From Salinispira pacifica (GTDB lineage: Bacteria > Spirochaetota > Spirochaetia > DSM-27196 > Salinispiraceae), in contig NC_023035.1 in the NCBI RefSeq assembly GCF_000507245.1, forward strand, positions 3,391,570 through 3,455,569: a stretch of DNA of 64,000 nt, in the 5' to 3' direction. This document shows, in pieces, positions 11,934-20,866 of this stretch; positions within the stretch are counted from its first letter, which is position 1, and each line of letters begins with the position of its first letter. The position numbers and the translations under genes are program-made. Below the pieces are notes generated by a model. It was not told where the DNA came from. It did no database searches and saw only the letters and a program-made list of their open reading frames with translations.

Positions 11934-12212
11934 CTACTGTTCAACCAGCTGTCCGGAAATATACTTATGCAAAACACTTTTCACGAATGCTTGATACCGC
12001 AATCCTTCACGTGCTGGCCGTTCTTTTATCTTTTCCAATTCAAACAGATCAATTCTGATATTCATCTTTTTTTCTTTTGGGATAAATTGCTTGGCAGCAT
12101 GTTTTAGCTTCGCTTGATCATCCGCAGAAGGCTAGTAGGCATCTGCTTCATCCACATAATCAAACGCTTCCAACATTTGCTTATCTTCGTCATCTATATA
12201 TTCAGGATTCAT
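11934..12212 (-). pseudogene. CopG-type (COG5304-like) antitoxin with an in-frame stop
   Basis: Reading leftward from the ATG ending at 12212 gives MNPEYIDDEDKQMLEAF through DEADAY, then a TAG at 12135-12137, then PSADDQAKLKHAAKQFI, KMNIRIDLFELEKIKER and GLRYQAFVKSVLHKYISGQL to a stop at 11934. The second part is a very good match to the ribbon-helix-helix antitoxins whose core is (V/M)NIRI...DLExI...G.pYQt.....HKY..G. One codon (TAG) breaks an otherwise intact 92-codon gene. Its start overlaps the stop of an upstream frame by one base (TAATG), the usual coupling of toxin and antitoxin genes. Confidence 0.75.
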
Positions 12213-12296
12213 TACCTCTCTGCTCTTGAGAAAGCGGCACCCTGGCTTTCCTTGAAACAGGTAGCTACGATCTGGTATTTGCCCAGTACGATTCCA
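12212..12296 (-). pseudogene. C-terminal remnant of the partner toxin gene
   Basis: The frame ending at the TAA overlapping the antitoxin ATG reads GIVLGKYQIVATCFKESQG then AAFSRAER. It is open back to about 12296, exactly where sequence shared with the nuclease repeat units begins, and it meets a stop inside that unit. The position (immediately upstream of a CopG antitoxin, one-base overlap) and the truncation point suggest the toxin gene was cut by the arrival or duplication of the repeat element. The residues are too few to name the toxin family. Confidence 0.45.
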
Positions 12297-12309
12297 GCCC
12301 CACCGCTTA

Positions 12310-12338
12310 TTTACTGCAGCACAGCCCTGCACTATAAT
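12310..12338 (+). promoter_or_regulatory. Strong sigma70-type promoter directly abutting the start codon (leaderless)
   Basis: TTTACT at 12310-12315, a 17-bp spacer, then a perfect TATAAT at 12333-12338. Only six bases separate the -10 box from the ATG at 12345, so transcription should start at or next to the A of the start codon, and no Shine-Dalgarno sequence fits. The same arrangement is preserved before copies 2, 3, 4 and 6 (TATAAT at 13328, 14357, 15364 and 17438). Confidence 0.65.
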
Positions 12339-12344
12339 ACTCCT

Positions 12345-13208
12345 ATGGAGAAACGCAGGCCGCTGAACCCCATGGCAGATGTGTTCGTACGCTACCTGCT
12401 GGGGTCGGAAAGCAATAAAGACATTCTCATCGATTTTCTCAACGCCGTATTCTCCCACAAAGGCCATGAGCTCGTTGTGGACCTGGAAATCAGAAACCCC
12501 TTTAATCTCACAACCATCCAGGAAAGCAAAGAAAGCATTCTGGATATAAAGGCAAAAGACCGCAATGGCCGCTGGATCAACGTGGAGGTTCAAGTCAGCC
12601 ACGAACCAAGCTACGCCGCCCGCAGTCTCTACTACTGGGCTAAAAGCTACACAGACCAGCTATCCCGGGGCGACGTCTACTCGGATCTATCCCCATCTGT
12701 CTGCATCAATCTGCTGGATTTCACCCTCTTTCCGGAACTCTCCGACTTTCACAGCTGCTTCCAGATAACCGAAAAAGATCACAAAGAATACATTCTCACT
12801 GAACATCTGGAAATCCACTTCATCGAACTATCCAAACTTGATTTCACCGCCATACCCAATTTTGAAACTGCCATACTGCGCTGGTGTTATTATTTTAAAA
12901 ACGAAGGAAACATACAGGAGGATACCATGCCCGTACTTCTCAAAGATAATCCCGCAATCGAAAAAGCCCACCATGTCTATGAAGATTTCACATCTGATGA
13001 GCAGCTCATGGACATGGCCGAAGCCCATGAAAAATGGGTAAAAGACGTAAACACCCGCCTCAAAACCGCACGGCAGCAGGGGCTTGAACAGGGGCTTGAG
13101 CAAGCCAGGATTGAGGATGCGAAAAAGATGCTGCAGGAAGGATTGGATATTGCTCTCATTTGCAGAATCACCGGCTTGAATGAAGATCAGATCAAAAAAT
13201 TAACCTGA
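12345..13208 (+). CDS. Rpn/PD-(D/E)XK nuclease family transposase, copy 1 (intact)
   Basis: 287 aa from the ATG after the TATAAT box; the frame is open upstream to 12114, but that stretch is outside the repeat unit. It fits the Rpn/TIGR01784 family: N-terminal NPMADVFVRYLLGSESNKDIL, then a PD-(D/E)XK core with Asp67 (SILDIKAKD) and the Glu81-x-Gln83 motif (WINVEVQ), then an alpha-helical C-terminus. Residues about 245-256 carry two GLEQ units, followed by a tail of the type KKMLQEGLDIALICRITGLN. E. coli Rpn proteins are nucleases that promote recA-independent recombination; activity here is inferred. This is one of two fully intact copies. Confidence 0.9.
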   Translation: MEKRRPLNPMADVFVRYLLGSESNKDILIDFLNAVFSHKGHELVVDLEIRNPFNLTTIQESKESILDIKAKDRNGRWINVEVQVSHEPSYAARSLYYWAKSYTDQLSRGDVYSDLSPSVCINLLDFTLFPELSDFHSCFQITEKDHKEYILTEHLEIHFIELSKLDFTAIPNFETAILRWCYYFKNEGNIQEDTMPVLLKDNPAIEKAHHVYEDFTSDEQLMDMAEAHEKWVKDVNTRLKTARQQGLEQGLEQARIEDAKKMLQEGLDIALICRITGLNEDQIKKLT

Positions 13209-13291
13209 CATCCTGCCCCCCCCCCCGGCAGCTAGCGCCAGGAAATCCGCAGCCGCTTGAGCTGGGGTGACCAGCCGACTGCTTCACTAGT
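13209..13291 (+). repeat. Inter-unit spacer with poly-C hairpin (first of several)
   Basis: After the stop comes CATCCTGCC, a C run, and GGCAGCTAGCG. CTGCC and GGCAG can pair around the C run as a small hairpin. The C run is 11 nt here (13216-13226), 10 nt after copy 2, 11 nt after copy 3 and 6 nt after the copy-5 scrap. The hairpin could act as a weak terminator or be the end of the mobile unit; no T run follows it. Confidence 0.6.
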
Positions 13292-13339
13292 GCCCCACCG
13301 CTTATTTACTGCAGCACAGCCCTGCACTATAATACTCCT

Positions 13340-14238
13340 ATGGAGAAACGCAGGCCGCTGAACCCCATGGCAGATGTGTTCGTACGCTACCTGCTGGGGT
13401 CGGAAAGCAATAAAGACATTCTCATCGATTTTCTCAACGCCGTATTCTCCCACAAAGGTCATGAGCTCGTTGTGGATCTGGAAATCAGAAACCCCTTTAA
13501 TCTCACAACCATCCAGGAGAGCAAAGAAAGCATTCTGGATATAAAGGCAAAAGACCGCAATGGCCGCTGGATCAACGTGGAGGTTCAAGTCAGCCACGAA
13601 CCAAGCTACGCCGCCCGCAGTCTCTACTACTGGGCCAAAAGCTACACGGACCAGCTATCCCGGGCGACGTCTACTCGGATCTATCCCCATCTGTCTGCAT
13701 CAATCTGCTGGATTTCACCCTCTTTCCGGAACTCTCCGACTTTCACAGCTGCTTCCAGATAACCGAAAAAGATCACAAAGAATACATTCTCACTGAACAT
13801 CTGGAAATCCACTTCATCGAACTATCCAAACTTGATTTCACCGCCATACCCAATTTTGAAACTGCCATACTGCGCTGGTGTTATTATTTTAAAAACGAAG
13901 GAAACATACAGGAGGATACCATGCCCGTACTTCTCAAAGATAATCCCGCAATCGAAAAAGCCCACCATGTCTATGAAGATTTCACCTCTGATGAGCAGCT
14001 CATGGACATGGCCGAAGCCCATGAAAAATGGGTAAAAGATGTGAACACCCGCCTCAAAACCGCACGGCAGCAGGGGCTTGAACAGGGGCTGGAACAAGGA
14101 CTTGAGCAAGGGCTTGAGCAGGGGCTTGAGCAAGCTAAAATTGAGGATGCGAAAAAGATGCTGCAAAAAGGATATCCCATCGTCGACATCGCAGAAATCA
14201 CCGGCTTGAATGAAGATCAGATCAAAAAATTAACCTGA
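13340..14238 (+). pseudogene. Rpn/PD-(D/E)XK nuclease family transposase, copy 2 (frameshifted)
   Basis: Same gene as copy 1, with the same start and promoter. The frame breaks at 13662-13664, where the other copies have GGGG and this one has GGG. The first frame therefore ends at 13762 after scrambling from residue 108, and the rest continues in the original reading to 14238. The catalytic Asp67 and Glu81-x-Gln83 lie before the break, so a truncated nuclease domain could still be made. The C-terminal part has five GLEQ units and the alternative tail KKMLQKGYPIVDIAEITGLN. An internal ATG at 13921 could express the C-terminal 105 residues. Confidence 0.88.
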
Positions 14239-14368
14239 CATCCTGCCCCCCCCCCGGCAGCTAGCGCCAGGAAATCCGCAGCCGCTTGAGCTGGGGTGAC
14301 CAGCCGACTGCTTCACTAGTGCCCCACCGCTTATTTACTGCAGCACAGCCCTGCACTATAATACTCCT

Positions 14369-15244
14369 ATGGAGAAACGCAGGCCGCTGAACCCCATGGC
14401 AGATGTGTTCGTACGCTACCTGCTGGGGTCGGAAAGCAATAAAGACATTCTCATCGATTTTCTCAACGCCGTATTCTCCCACAAAGGTCATGAGCTCGTT
14501 GTGGATCTGGAAATCAGAAACCCCTTTAATCTCACAACCATCCAGGAGAGCAAAGAAAGCATTCTGGATATAAAGGCAAAAGACCGCAATGGCCGCTGGA
14601 TCAACGTGGAGGTTCAAGTCAGCCACGAACCAAGCTACGCCGCCCGCAGTCTCTACTACTGGGCCAAAAGCTACACGGACCAGCTATCCCGGGGCGACGT
14701 CTACTCGGATCTATCCCCATCTGTCTGCATCAATCTGCTGGATTTCACCCTCTTTCCGGAACTCTCCGACTTTCACAGCTGCTTCCAGATAACCGAAAAA
14801 GATCACAAAGAATACATTCTCACCGAACATCTGGAAATCCACTTCATCGAACTATCCAAACTTGATTTCACCGCCATACCCAATTTTGAAACTGCCATAC
14901 TGCGCTGGTGTTATTATTTTAAAAACGAAGGAAACATACAGGAGGATACCATGCCCGTACTTCTCAAAGATAATCCCGCAATCGAAAAAGCCCACCATGT
15001 CTATGAAGATTTCACCTCTGATGAGCAGCTCATGGACATGGCCGAAGCCCATGAAAAATGGGTAAAAGACGTAAACACCCGCCTCAAAACCGCACGGCAG
15101 CAGGGGCTTGAACAGGGGCTTGAACAGGGGCTTGAGCAAGCTAAAATTGAGGATGCGAAAAAGATGCTGCAGGAAGGATTGGATATTGCTCTCATTTGCA
15201 GAATCACCGGCTTGAGTGAAGATCAGATCAAAAAATTAACCTGA
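14369..15244 (+). CDS. Rpn/PD-(D/E)XK nuclease family transposase, copy 3 (intact)
   Basis: 291 aa, complete, with Asp67 and Glu81-x-Gln83 preserved and the GGGG run intact. It is nearly identical to copy 1 but carries three GLEQ units instead of two, and ends QEGLDIALICRITGLSEDQ. It shares silent differences with copy 2 in the first half (for example CAAAGGTCAT and GTGGATCTGG), so its 5' half is closer to copy 2 and its 3' tail closer to copy 1. That is a sign of exchange between copies. Leaderless promoter as in copy 1. Confidence 0.9.
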   Translation: MEKRRPLNPMADVFVRYLLGSESNKDILIDFLNAVFSHKGHELVVDLEIRNPFNLTTIQESKESILDIKAKDRNGRWINVEVQVSHEPSYAARSLYYWAKSYTDQLSRGDVYSDLSPSVCINLLDFTLFPELSDFHSCFQITEKDHKEYILTEHLEIHFIELSKLDFTAIPNFETAILRWCYYFKNEGNIQEDTMPVLLKDNPAIEKAHHVYEDFTSDEQLMDMAEAHEKWVKDVNTRLKTARQQGLEQGLEQGLEQAKIEDAKKMLQEGLDIALICRITGLSEDQIKKLT

Positions 15245-15375
15245 CATCCTGCCCCCCCCCCCGGCAGCTAGCGCCAGGAAATCCGCAGCCGCTTGAGCTG
15301 GGGTTACCAGCCGACTGCTTCACTAGTGCCCCACCGCTTATTTACTGCAGCACAGCCCTGCACTATAATACTCCT

Positions 15376-16066
15376 ATGGAGAAACGCAGGCCGCTGGATC
15401 AACGTGGAGGTTCAAGTCAGCCACGAACCAAGCTACGCCGCCCGCAGTCTCTACTACTGGGCTAAAAGCTACACAGACCAGCTATCCCGGGGCGACGTCT
15501 ACTCGGATCTATCCCCGTCGGTCTGCATCAATCTGCTGGATTTCACCCTCTTTCCGGAACTCTCCGACTTTCACAGCTGCTTCCAGATAACCGAAAAAGA
15601 TCACAAAGAATACATTCTCACCGAACATCTGGAAATCCACTTCATCGAACTATCCAAACTTGATTTCACCGCCATACCCAATTTTGAAACTGCCATACTG
15701 CGCTGGTGTTATTATTTTAAAAACGAAGGAAACATACAGGAGGATACCATGCCCGTACTTCTCAAAGATAATCCCGCAATCGAAAAAGCCCACCATGTCT
15801 ATGAAGATTTCACCTCTGATGAGCAGCTCATGGACATGGCCGAAGCCCATGAAAAATGGGTAAAAGACGTAAACACCCGCCTCAAAACCGCACGGCAGCA
15901 GGGGCTTGAGCAGGGGCTGGAACAAGGACTTGAGCAAGGGCTTGAGCAGGGGCTTGAGCAAGCTAAAATTGAGGATGCGAAAAAGATGCTGCAGGAGGGG
16001 CTGGAAATTGCTCTCATTAGCAAAATAACCGGGTTAAGTGAAGACCAAGTTCAGACACTGAAATGA
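15376..16066 (+). pseudogene. Rpn/PD-(D/E)XK nuclease family transposase, copy 4 (209-bp deletion)
   Basis: The promoter and ATG at 15376 are intact, but after 13 bases the sequence jumps to the region encoding RWINVEVQ. Against copy 3 the missing stretch is 209 bp (14382-14590) and lies between two copies of GGCCGCTG, of which one remains. Because 209 is not a multiple of 3, the native ATG is out of frame with the rest; the remaining frame is open from 15293 to 16066 only by reading through the spacer. The catalytic Asp67 is lost. The 3' part has five GLEQ units and a third tail type (QEGLEIALISKITGLSEDQV). The downstream flank is no longer repeat-unit sequence. Confidence 0.88.
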
Positions 16067-16228
16067 TGTTTCTACAGTACCGCACAGGTATTTTATCATA
16101 AAACCGACTATTCATTGGTAAAAGCATTTTTAATTTTTCCGAGATCCACATAAGTGAAGCATCCGCCGGCTCATTATACCTTTCCTTCTGTTTTACATAA
16201 TGCAATACACCAGATAAGAACAACGACT

Positions 16229-16642
16229 TCACTCAACGACGGCTACAACACAGCGGGCGAACTCCCGGAAGTCGTCAAGATGCATGCTGATAATGGAGTA
16301 AAGAATTTGAACATCCATTTCCTGATACTCGTGAACGGCAATATTGCGAAATCCTACCGCCCGGCTTAATCTGCCGGCCAGGTCGACATCCAAAATACCG
16401 GCGGAGGCAAGGTCCGAGAACCCCGCACTCATGCTGGAGGGTGCCCGCAAGCCTCTGCTTACCAGAACGTGGGCTGAAATATCAACACATTGCTGCACCG
16501 CCCTCTCAATATTGAGGACAATAATGTCCTGGGCATCCAGATCGGTGGACAAGATTTCCGCATCCTCAGGCTTTTTTTCTTCAATCCGCCTGATACAGCG
16601 ACGCAGGGACGCCAGCTTACTGAGTATGAGCTCAACGTTCAT
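16229..16642 (-). CDS. hepT: HepT-like HEPN toxin
   Basis: 137 aa, all-helical. The HEPN RNase motif R-x4-H-x-Y is present as RNIAVHEY (Arg99, His104, Tyr106). The DUF86-like body matches HepT: LDAQDIIVLNIERAVQQCVDI, then FSDLASAGILD. Known HepT proteins cleave RNA and are silenced by the partner nucleotidyltransferase MntA, which AMPylates the tyrosine of this motif. Its start lies 11 nt inside the mntA gene, so the pair is translationally coupled. It is on the opposite strand to the nuclease array that encloses it. Confidence 0.88.
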   Translation of the reverse strand: MNVELILSKLASLRRCIRRIEEKKPEDAEILSTDLDAQDIIVLNIERAVQQCVDISAHVLVSRGLRAPSSMSAGFSDLASAGILDVDLAGRLSRAVGFRNIAVHEYQEMDVQILYSIISMHLDDFREFARCVVAVVE

Positions 16643-17027
16643 CTATCCAGTCCTTCACACTTTCCTTCTGCGCCTGTAACACAGACGGAAGAAGATTTTC
16701 CCGGTAATCCATCGCTTTTATGGCAAGACTGCTGCGAAGCATCACATCTTCCACAAGCACTTCACCGCCAATGGCTTCACATAAAATCAGACCTTCTGCG
16801 CTGAATAAATCGATTACATCCACGGTTCTAAAGAGAACAGCTTCAACAGCGGTTGCCAGATCGATCTTCCGTTCTATACTCATCTCACCGGAGTGCAGGG
16901 CGATGGCAATATCAATATCAGATTCCGGGGTCATTGTACCTTGAGAAGCAGAGCCGAACAGTAATGCCAAGCGGACATCTGTATCAGTTTTTAGAAATTC
17001 TTGTGCCCCACGGGCTATGTCGTTCAT
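16632..17027 (-). CDS. mntA: MntA-like minimal nucleotidyltransferase antitoxin
   Basis: 131 aa from the ATG ending at 17027, chosen because GGGGAG lies 5 nt upstream; the frame is open to 17111 without a ribosome site. The GSx10DxD motif is GSASQGTMTPESDIDIAI with Gly25/Ser26 and the two aspartates at 37 and 39; a third acidic residue is likely in RTVDVIDLF. MntA proteins AMPylate HepT and so act as antitoxin. The antitoxin gene precedes and overlaps the toxin gene, the usual order for this system. The protein ends KESVKDWIDER and looks full length. Confidence 0.88.
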   Translation of the reverse strand: MNDIARGAQEFLKTDTDVRLALLFGSASQGTMTPESDIDIAIALHSGEMSIERKIDLATAVEAVLFRTVDVIDLFSAEGLILCEAIGGEVLVEDVMLRSSLAIKAMDYRENLLPSVLQAQKESVKDWIDER

Positions 17028-17129
17028 ATCGCTCCCCGCTGAAACAGCGCATTCCGTTTTACCGGTCTTTAATGGAAGTGTAGCATAGTTTCGACGGTTT
17101 TTTACATACACTCATACTTCAGGGGGTCG

Positions 17130-17159
17130 ACAATATCCTTCAATTCCGGTGGATATTGT
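17130..17159. promoter_or_regulatory. Inverted repeat upstream of mntA, next to the array scrap
   Basis: ACAATATCC (17130-17138) and GGATATTGT (17151-17159) form perfect 9-bp arms around a 12-base loop. It lies about 100 bp upstream of the mntA start and ten bases before the first base of the copy-5 scrap. It could be an operator for the toxin-antitoxin pair or a mark of the insertion junction. Function is not shown. Confidence 0.35.
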
Positions 17160-17168
17160 GATGGGATG

Positions 17169-17323
17169 CCGCACGGCAGCAGGGGCTTGAACAGGGTCTG
17201 GAACAAGGACTTGAGCAAGCTAAAATTGAGGATGCGAAAAAGATGCTGCAAAAAGGATATCCCATCGTCGACATCGCAGAAATCACCGGTTTGAGTGAAG
17301 AACAGATCAAGAAATTAACCTGA
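17169..17323 (+). pseudogene. Rpn-family copy 5, C-terminal scrap
   Basis: Only the last about 50 codons remain, from the ACC-GCA-CGG-CAG region to the stop at 17321-17323. It contains three GLEQ units, then AKIEDAKKMLQKGYPIVDIA and EITGLSEEQIKKLT, the same tail type as copies 2 and 6. There is no start codon or promoter. The left end is abrupt, next to the DNA that carries HepT/MntA. It is followed by the normal spacer with a shortened C run (6 nt). Confidence 0.85.
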
Positions 17324-17449
17324 CATCCTGCCCCCCGGCAGCTAGCGTCAGGAAATCCGCAGCCGTTTGAGCTGGGGTTACCAGCCGACTGCTTCACTAG
17401 TGCCCCACCGGTTATTTACTGCAGCACAGCCCTGCACTATAATACTCCT

Positions 17450-17743
17450 ATGGAGAAACGCAGCATCGTACTTCTCAAAGATAATCCCGCAATCGAAAAA
17501 GCCCACCATGTCTATGAAGATTTCACCTCTGATGAACAGCTCATGGACATGGCCGAGGCCCATGAAAAATGGGTAAAAGACGTAAACACCCGCCTCAAAA
17601 CCGCACGGCAGCAGGGGCTTGAACAGGGGCTTGAGCAAGCTAAAATTGAAGATGCGAAAAAGATGCTGCAAAAAGGATATCCCATCGTCGACATCGCAGA
17701 AATCACCGGTTTGAGTGAAGAACAGATCAAGAAACTCGAATGA
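17450..17743 (+). CDS. Rpn-family copy 6, in-frame internal deletion lacking the nuclease domain
   Basis: 97 aa. The promoter, ATG and first four codons (MEKR) are retained, then the gene continues at SIVLLKDNPAIEKAHHVYED, so about 190 residues including the whole PD-(D/E)XK core are gone but the frame is kept. It has two GLEQ units and ends AEITGLSEEQIKKLE, with a different stop region from the other copies (CTCGAATGA). If expressed from the leaderless promoter it would be a small helical protein with the C-terminal oligomer-like region only. It may be a dead relic or a modulator of the intact copies; only the first is the default. Confidence 0.65.
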   Translation: MEKRSIVLLKDNPAIEKAHHVYEDFTSDEQLMDMAEAHEKWVKDVNTRLKTARQQGLEQGLEQAKIEDAKKMLQKGYPIVDIAEITGLSEEQIKKLE

Positions 17744-17775
17744 ACTAACAACAGAAAAAGATGAAGGTTTGATAT

Positions 17776-19989
17776 ATGAATGAAATAGGAGCACGATACT
17801 CACACAAGATGTTGGATGAAATCCTTCCCCCGGCCTTTGATTATGCCCGGAGAAAGAGGATCGGAGAGGCCCGATTAAAGGAGCTGGATCAGTCATACCT
17901 GGCCGAAAATCAGGATGAAGAGAATCTCGATATGATGGCGGGAATGCTGGTGGCTGGCTCTCTGTTCACCTCAGCCAAGCTTGCGGGGGCATTTCTACGC
18001 AGTCAGGGTGATGAGCTCAGCGAAGAAGCCGGTAAAATGGCACGGATGTGGCGAAAGACGCCTTGGACCTATATGGCAGTTGATATTCTGGAGCGCATAG
18101 ACGACAGTCCCTTTTTTCGCATGAAGGCCTTGGGTGGAAAGCCGAAAACCTTTGCCGCTGAAGAGGATTGGCCTGAGTTCACCCTGTAGTCCCCGGCGCT
18201 GAGGGAGCTTCATTCAGACGGGTACACCCGGTTCTTTTCCCTGTACTGGAGATCACAGGAGTGCTGGCACAGTTACGGGCCCATAATCCCCTTACCGCAA
18301 CTTGAGAATAAGACCGATCTGCGCTACTACGCCGAAGTATCAACCCCCAACCGGAAACACAGCAGGATTATTGGTGCCCGCCAGACCCCGAATTCCGGGG
18401 ATTACCCTTTGAGTGAGCGTGTTACTTCCAACCCAATCCCCTGGATACGCCTCATCGAAATATCCGGGATGCCGAAGGTGCGAAACCCCAGGTTCACCAT
18501 AGGCATGTTTGCCTCTTACGCTGAGCATCCGGAAAACCCGGCGGATGAATCTTCCATTCAGAATGCGGCTGAGGAAATATCAGACTTAATTAATACGAGC
18601 AAATTCCTTGCCCGGCGGCGAATGCTTGATGATCCGAATGTGGGATTGGCAGCTGCCATATCAATCGAATCCCCCCACAGGCATGCGGATATGAGCTCGG
18701 TATACATCCACCAGGGAACAGTGTATCTCAAGAGTATCGCCCGGGAGAGCTATGATGAGATCAGGGAAGTGCTTGAACCGATTGTTCAGCTGCCCGAAGA
18801 CCCCATGCTTGATGTGAGTTTCGGCTTATATACCTTTGCGGACGACTGGTATGCCGCCACCGACACGCTGCATCTGCTCATCGAAGCCTTCGATGACGAA
18901 ATATTTGATGGTGATGAAGAAGACTTGGACGACGACGGGGGCTTTCCCGACGGGAACAAGCCTTCTGCAACCATGCCGGATTTCAATATCACCACAGATT
19001 TGGACACAATCAATGCCGTATCTGCAGAATTAATCACTGCCCGGAACGCCGGCGAAGAGCCGGATATCAACAGAATCATGAAGAACACCGGGGCCTCCCG
19101 CAGCAATGTTGAAGCCATACAGAAAATGATCGAGTATTCATTGTCCAACATGGGCGTTGATACTGATATCCCCGGACCCTTCGATTTACCCCCGGCGGCA
19201 GTTCATGCCCTCACAAGCCCTCCTCTGGAGGAAGCCGAGGGACTGCTTTCCCTGGATAATCTGGCACAACTTAAGCCTGCCGCATTCCAGAACGTGCCGA
19301 TTATCCGGCTGTACAAAGCCCTCACGGAAGCGGAAGATCCAGGGGGCTTCATACCCGTCACAGCAGCAGGTTATATAAAACCGGCAATTGTGAAAAAACT
19401 GGCACAGATATTGCCCGACCAGCTTGGGTTCCTGGAACCGGAGGAGGTTAAAAAAGAATCGGACTGGTTCTGGCTGGAACGGATGCGAAACCTGCTCACC
19501 AGCGCGGATATTCTTCTGGTTGAATCCAAGGGGTTCAGACTTGCATTTACCGGGACGGATCCGGCCACGATAAAAGATATCTACCTGCGTACTCTCAGCG
19601 CCCTGTTCCGCCACCACCCCTGGGGAACTCACCCCCGCTTCAATTTTGAAGATGAAAGCTGGATTCACGGAACATCCGCCCTTCTTCTTTACGGGCTGAA
19701 ATATCTTGCGGATAATGCCGCAGACCATAGAGTCTACGATTATGAGATGGCACCCCATCTGGCAAGATATGTGCCCGAGTACCGTGAAACGCTGCGGGAC
19801 GATCCGGACCAAGACCCCCGCAAGTTCGATACCCCCGTGGGTTACCTCGGCTACCGGGTAATCAGCCTGTTTTTTCAACAGTTTTGCATCCCTTTGGGGC
19901 TGGCAGAGAGTATTGAAGTTGAACCCTTGAAGCCTAAACCTGTTGTTCCAACCCCCTTGCTGGATGCTCTGGTACGGCTGAGAACATGA
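17776..19989 (+). pseudogene. Large protein of unknown function interrupted by one in-frame TAG
   Basis: One reading frame runs from ATG 17776 (AAGG 8 nt upstream) to 19989, 737 codons, broken only by TAG at 18187-18189. The sense flow across the stop (EEDWPEFTL, stop, SPALRELHSDGYTRFFSLYW) looks continuous. A CAG-to-TAG change would explain it. The part after the stop could start at TTG 18409 without a ribosome site. The middle has an acidic run (FDGDEEDLDDDGG). The segment FIPVTAAGYIKPAIVKKLAQ followed 40 residues later by MRNLLTSADILLVESKGFRL resembles the winged-helix-like region seen in some pRiA4b ORF3/SEC-C-type accessory proteins. That similarity is only an impression. Function unknown. 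Confidence 0.7.
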
Positions 19990-20053: not shown

Positions 20054-20112
20054 GCCCAGGAGTCTTGCTGTTCCATACAATTACTACTACGATTGTACGT
20101 ACAGGAATACAT

Positions 20113-20541
20113 ATGGAACAGGACGTTCGCTGGATTCAGCGCTTCAGTAATTATCAGAAAGCATTCAATCAGTTGAAATACGGTGTGGAGCTTGCTTCAG
20201 AACGAGAACTTAATCAACTGGAGAAACAGGGGCTCATTCAAAGCTTTGAGTTTGTACATGAGCTGGCCTGGAAGACACTAAAGAACTACCTTGAGAACAA
20301 AGGAATCATGGGTCTCATTGGTTCAAAAGACAGTACACGCCAAGCCTTCAGGGAGGGTCTCATCTCGGATGGTGAGGTGTGGATGGAGATGATCAAAGCC
20401 AGAAATCTCACATCTCACACATATGAGGAGAAAACTGCTCAAAAGATTTTTGATGCCATCATAGACAGCTTTTTTCCCGCATTCCGGGCTTTTGAAAAGA
20501 ACTTCTCCCGCCTTGCCGAGACGGATGACAATGATGAATGA
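20113..20541 (+). CDS. HI0074-like nucleotidyltransferase substrate-binding protein
   Basis: 142 aa from ATG 20113, which has AGGA 6 nt upstream. The motif order WIQRFSNYQKAFNQL, then QGLIQSFEFVHELAWKTLKN, then ARNLTSHTYEEKTA is typical of the HI0074/TIGR01987 family of all-helical HEPN-related proteins that pair with a small nucleotidyltransferase. The RNLTSHTY segment occupies the place of the HEPN RxxxxHxY motif (Arg, His and Tyr all present), so it could be an RNase toxin of the HepT kind. It overlaps the following nucleotidyltransferase gene, forming a two-gene module. Confidence 0.85.
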   Translation: MEQDVRWIQRFSNYQKAFNQLKYGVELASERELNQLEKQGLIQSFEFVHELAWKTLKNYLENKGIMGLIGSKDSTRQAFREGLISDGEVWMEMIKARNLTSHTYEEKTAQKIFDAIIDSFFPAFRAFEKNFSRLAETDDNDE

Positions 20542-20866
20542 GTTCGGTTTATCAAATACTGTGATGACGAAGCTGGAAACAGTATTTCGCAGACATCCCG
20601 AAGTGGAATCAGTTCAGATCTACGGTTCCAGAGCCATGGGCAGCTACAGGGAAGGCTCGGACATTGACCTGGTTCTCAAGGGAGATATCTCAATACATCA
20701 GCTTTCAGATATAATTGACGAGATCGACGAACTTCTGCTTCCCTATATGTTCGATATATCAGTGTATGATCACATAGAAAATACCGGACTACTTGAGCAT
20801 ATCCACCGGGTGGGAAAACAATTTCTGCCTACTGAACACACATCCTCGATTTCAGCAAATCATTGA
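20525..20866 (+). CDS. HI0073-like minimal nucleotidyltransferase
   Basis: 113 aa if started at ATG 20525 (GAG 4 nt upstream); ATG 20531 and 20534 are alternatives. The GSx10DxD motif is GSRAMGSYREGSDIDLVL (Gly34, Ser35, Asp46, Asp48), and the third acid is probably in MFDISVYDHI. It overlaps the HI0074-like gene by 17 nt. The order (helical HEPN-like protein first, nucleotidyltransferase second) is the reverse of the mntA-hepT module 3 kb to the left, so the two are separate acquisitions. Likely an antitoxin or partner enzyme. Confidence 0.85.
   Translation: MTMMNEFGLSNTVMTKLETVFRRHPEVESVQIYGSRAMGSYREGSDIDLVLKGDISIHQLSDIIDEIDELLLPYMFDISVYDHIENTGLLEHIHRVGKQFLPTEHTSSISANH

Follow-up and report, generated by a model that had tools for sequence, protein, structure and literature searches.

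A split gene of an uncharacterised spirochaete family in Salinispira pacifica, probably a recent nonsense pseudogene

The split frame and its surroundings

The window, that is the whole stretch of 64,000 nucleotides analysed here, contains on its forward strand a reading frame opening at ATG 17776, in which translation gives 137 codons, a TAG at 18187–18189, 599 further codons and a final TGA at 19987–19989. The first-pass annotation had described the frame 17776–19989 as carrying one internal TAG: no other stop is found within it, and a TGA at 17770, upstream in the same frame, may now be added. The same annotation placed the gene next to an array and between toxin-antitoxin modules, in agreement with what is found: an Rpn-type array and a HepT-like gene upstream, an NTase_sub_bind/Polbeta pair downstream. 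The features are listed below, by position in the window.

12114–17743, plus strand: array of Rpn-type (PDDEXK_2) copies, upstream of the gene, up to 99–100% identical over 300-base stretches
16229–16642, minus strand: HepT-like gene, from the protein scan
16632–17111, minus strand: nucleotidyltransferase, judged by its own sequence only
17450–17743, plus strand: last, truncated Rpn-type copy, matching the 3' portion of PDDEXK_2 copy 12114–13208, with about 30 bases between its end and the gene
17761–17775, plus strand: possible former 5' end, with ATG 17761 and TGA 17770–17772, from spacing and from a profile match running through it (one TGA and one TAG inside)
17776–18186, plus strand: N-terminal part of the split gene (137 codons), a helical segment together with the opening strands of an alpha/beta domain (translation, alignment, model)
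18187–18189, plus strand: internal TAG, in a column where six of the 7 full-length relatives have Tyr and the seventh has Phe
18190–19989, plus strand: rest of the split gene, open for 599 codons up to the final TGA (translation, relatives, stop counts)
18409–18411, plus strand: TTG, the first common start codon past the TAG; the first ATG is at 18469
19168–19986, plus strand: C-terminal module, residues about 465–737, homologous to a module following SEC-C motifs
20065–20866, plus strand: NTase_sub_bind and Polbeta pair, downstream of the gene

The sequence past the TAG has no in-frame stop, against 11 to 33 in its five other frames and, on average, 25.2 when its bases are shuffled (500 shuffles). 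GC content by codon position is similar on the two sides (0.58/0.41/0.56 before the TAG, 0.58/0.41/0.59 after it). Far beyond chance, the absence of stops and the like GC pattern indicate that both sides are real coding sequence.

Two pairs of the HepT/nucleotidyltransferase type flank the gene, at 16229–17111 (minus strand) and 20065–20866 (plus strand). In the Rpn-type array, the copy at 13340–13762 is frameshifted, those at about 17180–17321 and at 17450–17743 are truncated, and a GLEQ-coding repeat is present in varying numbers. A sigma-70-like site at 17415–17443 precedes the last copy, the number of such sites being at the level of shuffled sequence. The gene may have lost its promoter through recent local duplication beside its 5' end. 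Among the nine flanking proteins scanned around relatives, no conserved gene neighbour was found; neighbours differ between relatives, and the only toxin-antitoxin kind is a pair composed of an RHH protein and a weak PIN match (L067). Directly downstream of the relative in L070 (the same gene as L006), a gene at L070:6250–7527 combines a SWIM zinc finger, just under the cut-off, with an SNF2-related domain.

Relatives across the stop site

Of 46 genomes of the order, searched at E up to 10, 18 had matches, the own genome being one of them, and in seven of these 18 a full-length protein covers both halves as a single open frame. Scanning genome contigs with the alignment gave seven loci, in Spirochaetaceae or Spirochaetales MAGs. 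These proteins (L003–L009, corresponding to L064–L070) are 730–790 residues long, share the two-module order of the split gene over its full length, with 24–28% identity, and are uninterrupted in all seven cases; they differ in a conserved C-K-R near the start, which the split gene does not keep. A profile search of 392 phylum genomes gave matches in 13, again including the own genome, and provided eight distant relatives crossing the TAG site, all without interruption. All relatives reaching the site are therefore continuous there (15 out of 15, a number which includes the near-duplicates L079/L080, L085/L087 and L004/L005).

Weak or partial matches from the order search (L012–L015, L017–L019, L021), along with rows not retrieved, were left out of the alignments. 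L010 and L011 are ended by contig ends, short of the TAG site; L090 was excluded, since the longest frame taken from it encodes an unrelated protein; L091 and L082 are one and the same gene. Single-sequence searches were unproductive: at E 0.001 nothing was found in three other genomes of the family, nor in the other 391 of the 392 phylum genomes, and searches of genome contigs, and of PDB by sequence, gave no useful match. Plasmids gave chance-level matches only. The own genome, searched as a single contig of 3,782,798 bases, contains no second copy of the split gene.

Since the seven full-length and eight distant relatives run unbroken across the TAG site, the two halves are parts of one gene, as had been proposed: one ancestral frame is split here by a stop. 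No relative ends near residue 137, the shortest protein crossing the site being about 410 residues long, and a natural family of such short proteins was accordingly rejected. Separate C-module proteins do exist: they start at the module boundary near residue 460, and not near 18409 (residue 212). The refutation proposed in the first-pass annotation, by homologues ending at residue 137 and others starting near 18409, thus did not materialize.

In the eight distant relatives, the residue in the TAG column is Tyr in four, Ser in two, Leu in one and His in one. The occurrence of Tyr or Phe in all full-length relatives leaves without support the suggestion that the stop came from a C-to-T change, in a Gln codon.

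Reading the internal stop

With the tRNA model, 42 tRNA genes were found in the genome, none of them with a CTA anticodon. The PylS model gave two matches, of 26 and 19 bits, far below its cut-off of 178; in 14 control genomes the same search gave matches in 13, over the cut-off in 1. Ordinary termination by TAG is seen in the window, where 4 of the 47 long frames end with it. Reading through or suppressing the stop would produce a full-length protein, as in the relatives, from a frame otherwise intact; the missing CTA anticodon, the PylS scores and the regular use of TAG all stand against it, and we consider it very improbable. A suppressed stop, one of the origins first suggested, is thus unsupported; an amber suppressor was rejected on the tRNA genes, and pyrrolysine recoding on the PylS scores.

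A sequencing error had also been suggested; for this, or for an assembly error, a single substituted base would be enough. The assembly, as described in PMC4511686, is based on PacBio data at 365-fold coverage, with Illumina and 454 reads mapped for checking and error correction, which makes such an error unlikely; moreover, the TAG site lies outside the repeat array. Only a very slight chance is left to this explanation. The same paper counts 53 pseudogenes in the genome.

The position of the stop within the protein was evaluated on structure models. A first one, from 8 sequences, had a mean pLDDT of 65.5 and matched no fold at E 0.001 or below; a second one, from 23 sequences, reached a mean pLDDT of 83.5, with pTM 0.57. 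In the latter, the TAG corresponds to the last residue of a strand (134–138), and the sheet resumes at 152–159 and 164–172. The stop being inside a beta strand, a 137-residue product would miss part of its domain; a product restarted at TTG 18409 or ATG 18469 would, in turn, miss the domain-completing strands 152–159 and 164–172.

This bears on two ways in which the broken gene might still be used. The 137-residue piece could be a functional short protein: 15 of the 22 invariant columns are conserved in it, and the N side shows a shorter branch than the C side. In the model, however, it ends within a beta sheet, and no relative is so short, so that we give this reading hardly any weight. Alternatively, the gene could work in two pieces: ribosomes would re-initiate at TTG 18409 or ATG 18469 to translate the downstream frame, and the fragments would associate. 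The absence of downstream stops, the coding-like GC by codon position and the 45 of 78 invariant columns kept there speak in its favor. Yet the candidate starts are 220 to 280 bases past the TAG, and neither is preceded by a convincing ribosome-binding site, as judged by eye; a restart would lose residues 139–211, including, according to the model, two strands of the N-terminal domain; and none of the 15 relatives is split at the TAG site. A gene in two pieces is therefore unlikely.

The age of the break may be estimated from the downstream frame, which, if unconstrained, should gain 49 to 65 stops per substitution per site. The finding of none implies, again if unconstrained, a divergence since the break of less than some 0.05 to 0.06 substitutions per site (5% level). 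The invariant columns kept on the two sides do not differ significantly (Fisher p 0.46). The branch of the split gene is 0.99 on the N side and 1.79 on the C side, and the reverse is seen in the divergent relative L003 (1.68 and 0.95). The longer C-side branch could reflect a constraint relaxed already before the TAG arose, even if the reverse holds in L003. No firm sign of decay is seen past the TAG, which fits a recent break. A downstream frame still open means either that the break is young or that the frame is still constrained, and with 599 codons open a constrained product may still be made from it. The proposal of a recent mutation is probably correct, as the downstream frame is open and columns are kept at similar rates on both sides.

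A second stop may be present at the 5' end. The distance from ATG 17761 to a conserved Y-A-x-R-K motif is 27 residues, identical to that in five of the seven full-length relatives (26 and 30 in the other two), while from ATG 17776 it is 22. For gapless scores from 17761 against the five relatives of equal spacing, no more than 0 to 5 of 2000 shuffles did as well, although much of the score is supplied by residues after 17776, the first 12 positions scoring 1 to 14. If the start is counted as in the relatives, the gene may carry two stops; the spacing and the short alignment are suggestive of TGA 17770 as a second lesion, near the relatives' start position, with translation now presumably beginning at 17776. 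Alternatively, 17776 is simply the gene start, and a usable one, being preceded by a GAAGG stretch (by eye).

Taken together, the feature is quite probably a pseudogene recently created by a nonsense mutation, next to an Rpn-type array of recent duplication, in a spirochaete protein family so far uncharacterised. The ancestral gene would have encoded a single soluble protein of two modules and about 740 residues, of the kind still made by its relatives. A substitution would then have created the TAG in a beta strand of the N-terminal module, and translation would now yield at most a 137-residue piece, unable to complete its domain; the downstream rest, still open, would point to a recent change. 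The gene has presumably lost its function. For this environmental spirochaete it would thus be a broken gene of an ordinary kind, not to be mistaken for recoding, and it has led to a Spirochaetales two-module family unnamed by Pfam, NCBIfam, PHROGs and PADLOC.

The two modules and their homologs

With Pfam, NCBIfam, PADLOC and PHROGs, neither half gave a match at E 1 or below, in agreement with the unknown family assigned from the sequence alone; as for anti-phage defence, PADLOC models gave no family for either half up to E 1. The best explanation for the intact gene product is one soluble protein of two modules, about 740 residues long.

Foldseek comparison of the second model with PDB and a viral library gave no match at E 0.001 or better. 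With VIA-align, residues 242–351 gave a best Z of 6.7 with spermine synthase, followed by RnlA (5.9) and TBP (5.4); residues 506–592 gave 5.5 with Vfr. Weak fold alignments connect region 242–351 with TBP-like folds, among others, and region 500–595, approximately, with winged-helix parts of CRP-type regulators. All matches are under Z 7, below the level that the tool calls "common", and are used as leads only. As a tentative suggestion from such matches, a cytosolic accessory protein binding nucleic acid or protein is the likeliest role of the intact family, though at a low probability. In a more elaborate and quite improbable reading, the split is natural and young: besides the upstream fragment a downstream one would be translated by re-initiation, and the two would still come together as a functioning two-module protein of a family unnamed in the libraries searched, binding nucleic acid through a middle that resembles TBP and a stretch of the SEC-C-associated module that resembles a winged helix; the pseudogene reading is preferred.

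The N module (residues about 1–460) makes up whole proteins of about 410 residues; in others, of about 590 to 650, it comes with a tail. Proteins containing it, about 410–650 residues long, are present in other Spirochaetota (L079, L080, L082–L085, L087, L088), unnamed in Pfam where scanned. Four of them, of about 410 residues (L079, L080, L085, L087), consist of the N module only: they are homologous to that of the split gene, stop at the module boundary and have no C module. The profile of the group including these four matches columns 9–485, with probability 99.9 and E 9e-34.

In the first-pass annotation the protein was described as faintly like SEC-C and pRiA4b accessory proteins. The SEC-C part of this comparison is right for the C module, which is homologous to a module following SEC-C motifs, although the motif itself is absent from the split gene. 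In the comparison by hhalign, the SEC-C-associated group, composed of five members, two of which carry SEC-C, matches the C module with probability 99.2 and E 6e-20. No Pfam match to the SEC-C motif (PF02810) was found in either half up to E 1, nor in the read-through protein at E 5. The relation to pRiA4b (PF07929) is not supported: neither half matches it, the own genome has none, against 7 of 46 genomes of the order with one, and membership was rejected. In the literature, nothing was found linking SEC-C with pRiA4b, the SEC-C motif with zinc and SecA, or SEC-C with defense.

The two SEC-C members are the Spirochaetota proteins L081 and L086, in which the SEC-C motif is followed by the C module (L081:1489–2622, L086:1063–2040). 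In these proteins the C-terminal module is homologous to that of the split gene, which, in contrast, lacks the motif. The arrangement in L081 and L086 suggests a SEC-C-associated domain without a Pfam name, and the family of the split gene is now linked to a module which accompanies SEC-C motifs. Three further proteins (L016, L020, L089) have the C module in common with the split gene, followed by TPR repeats, and no N module; a mycobacterial SEC-C protein with TPR repeats is described in PMC6032435.
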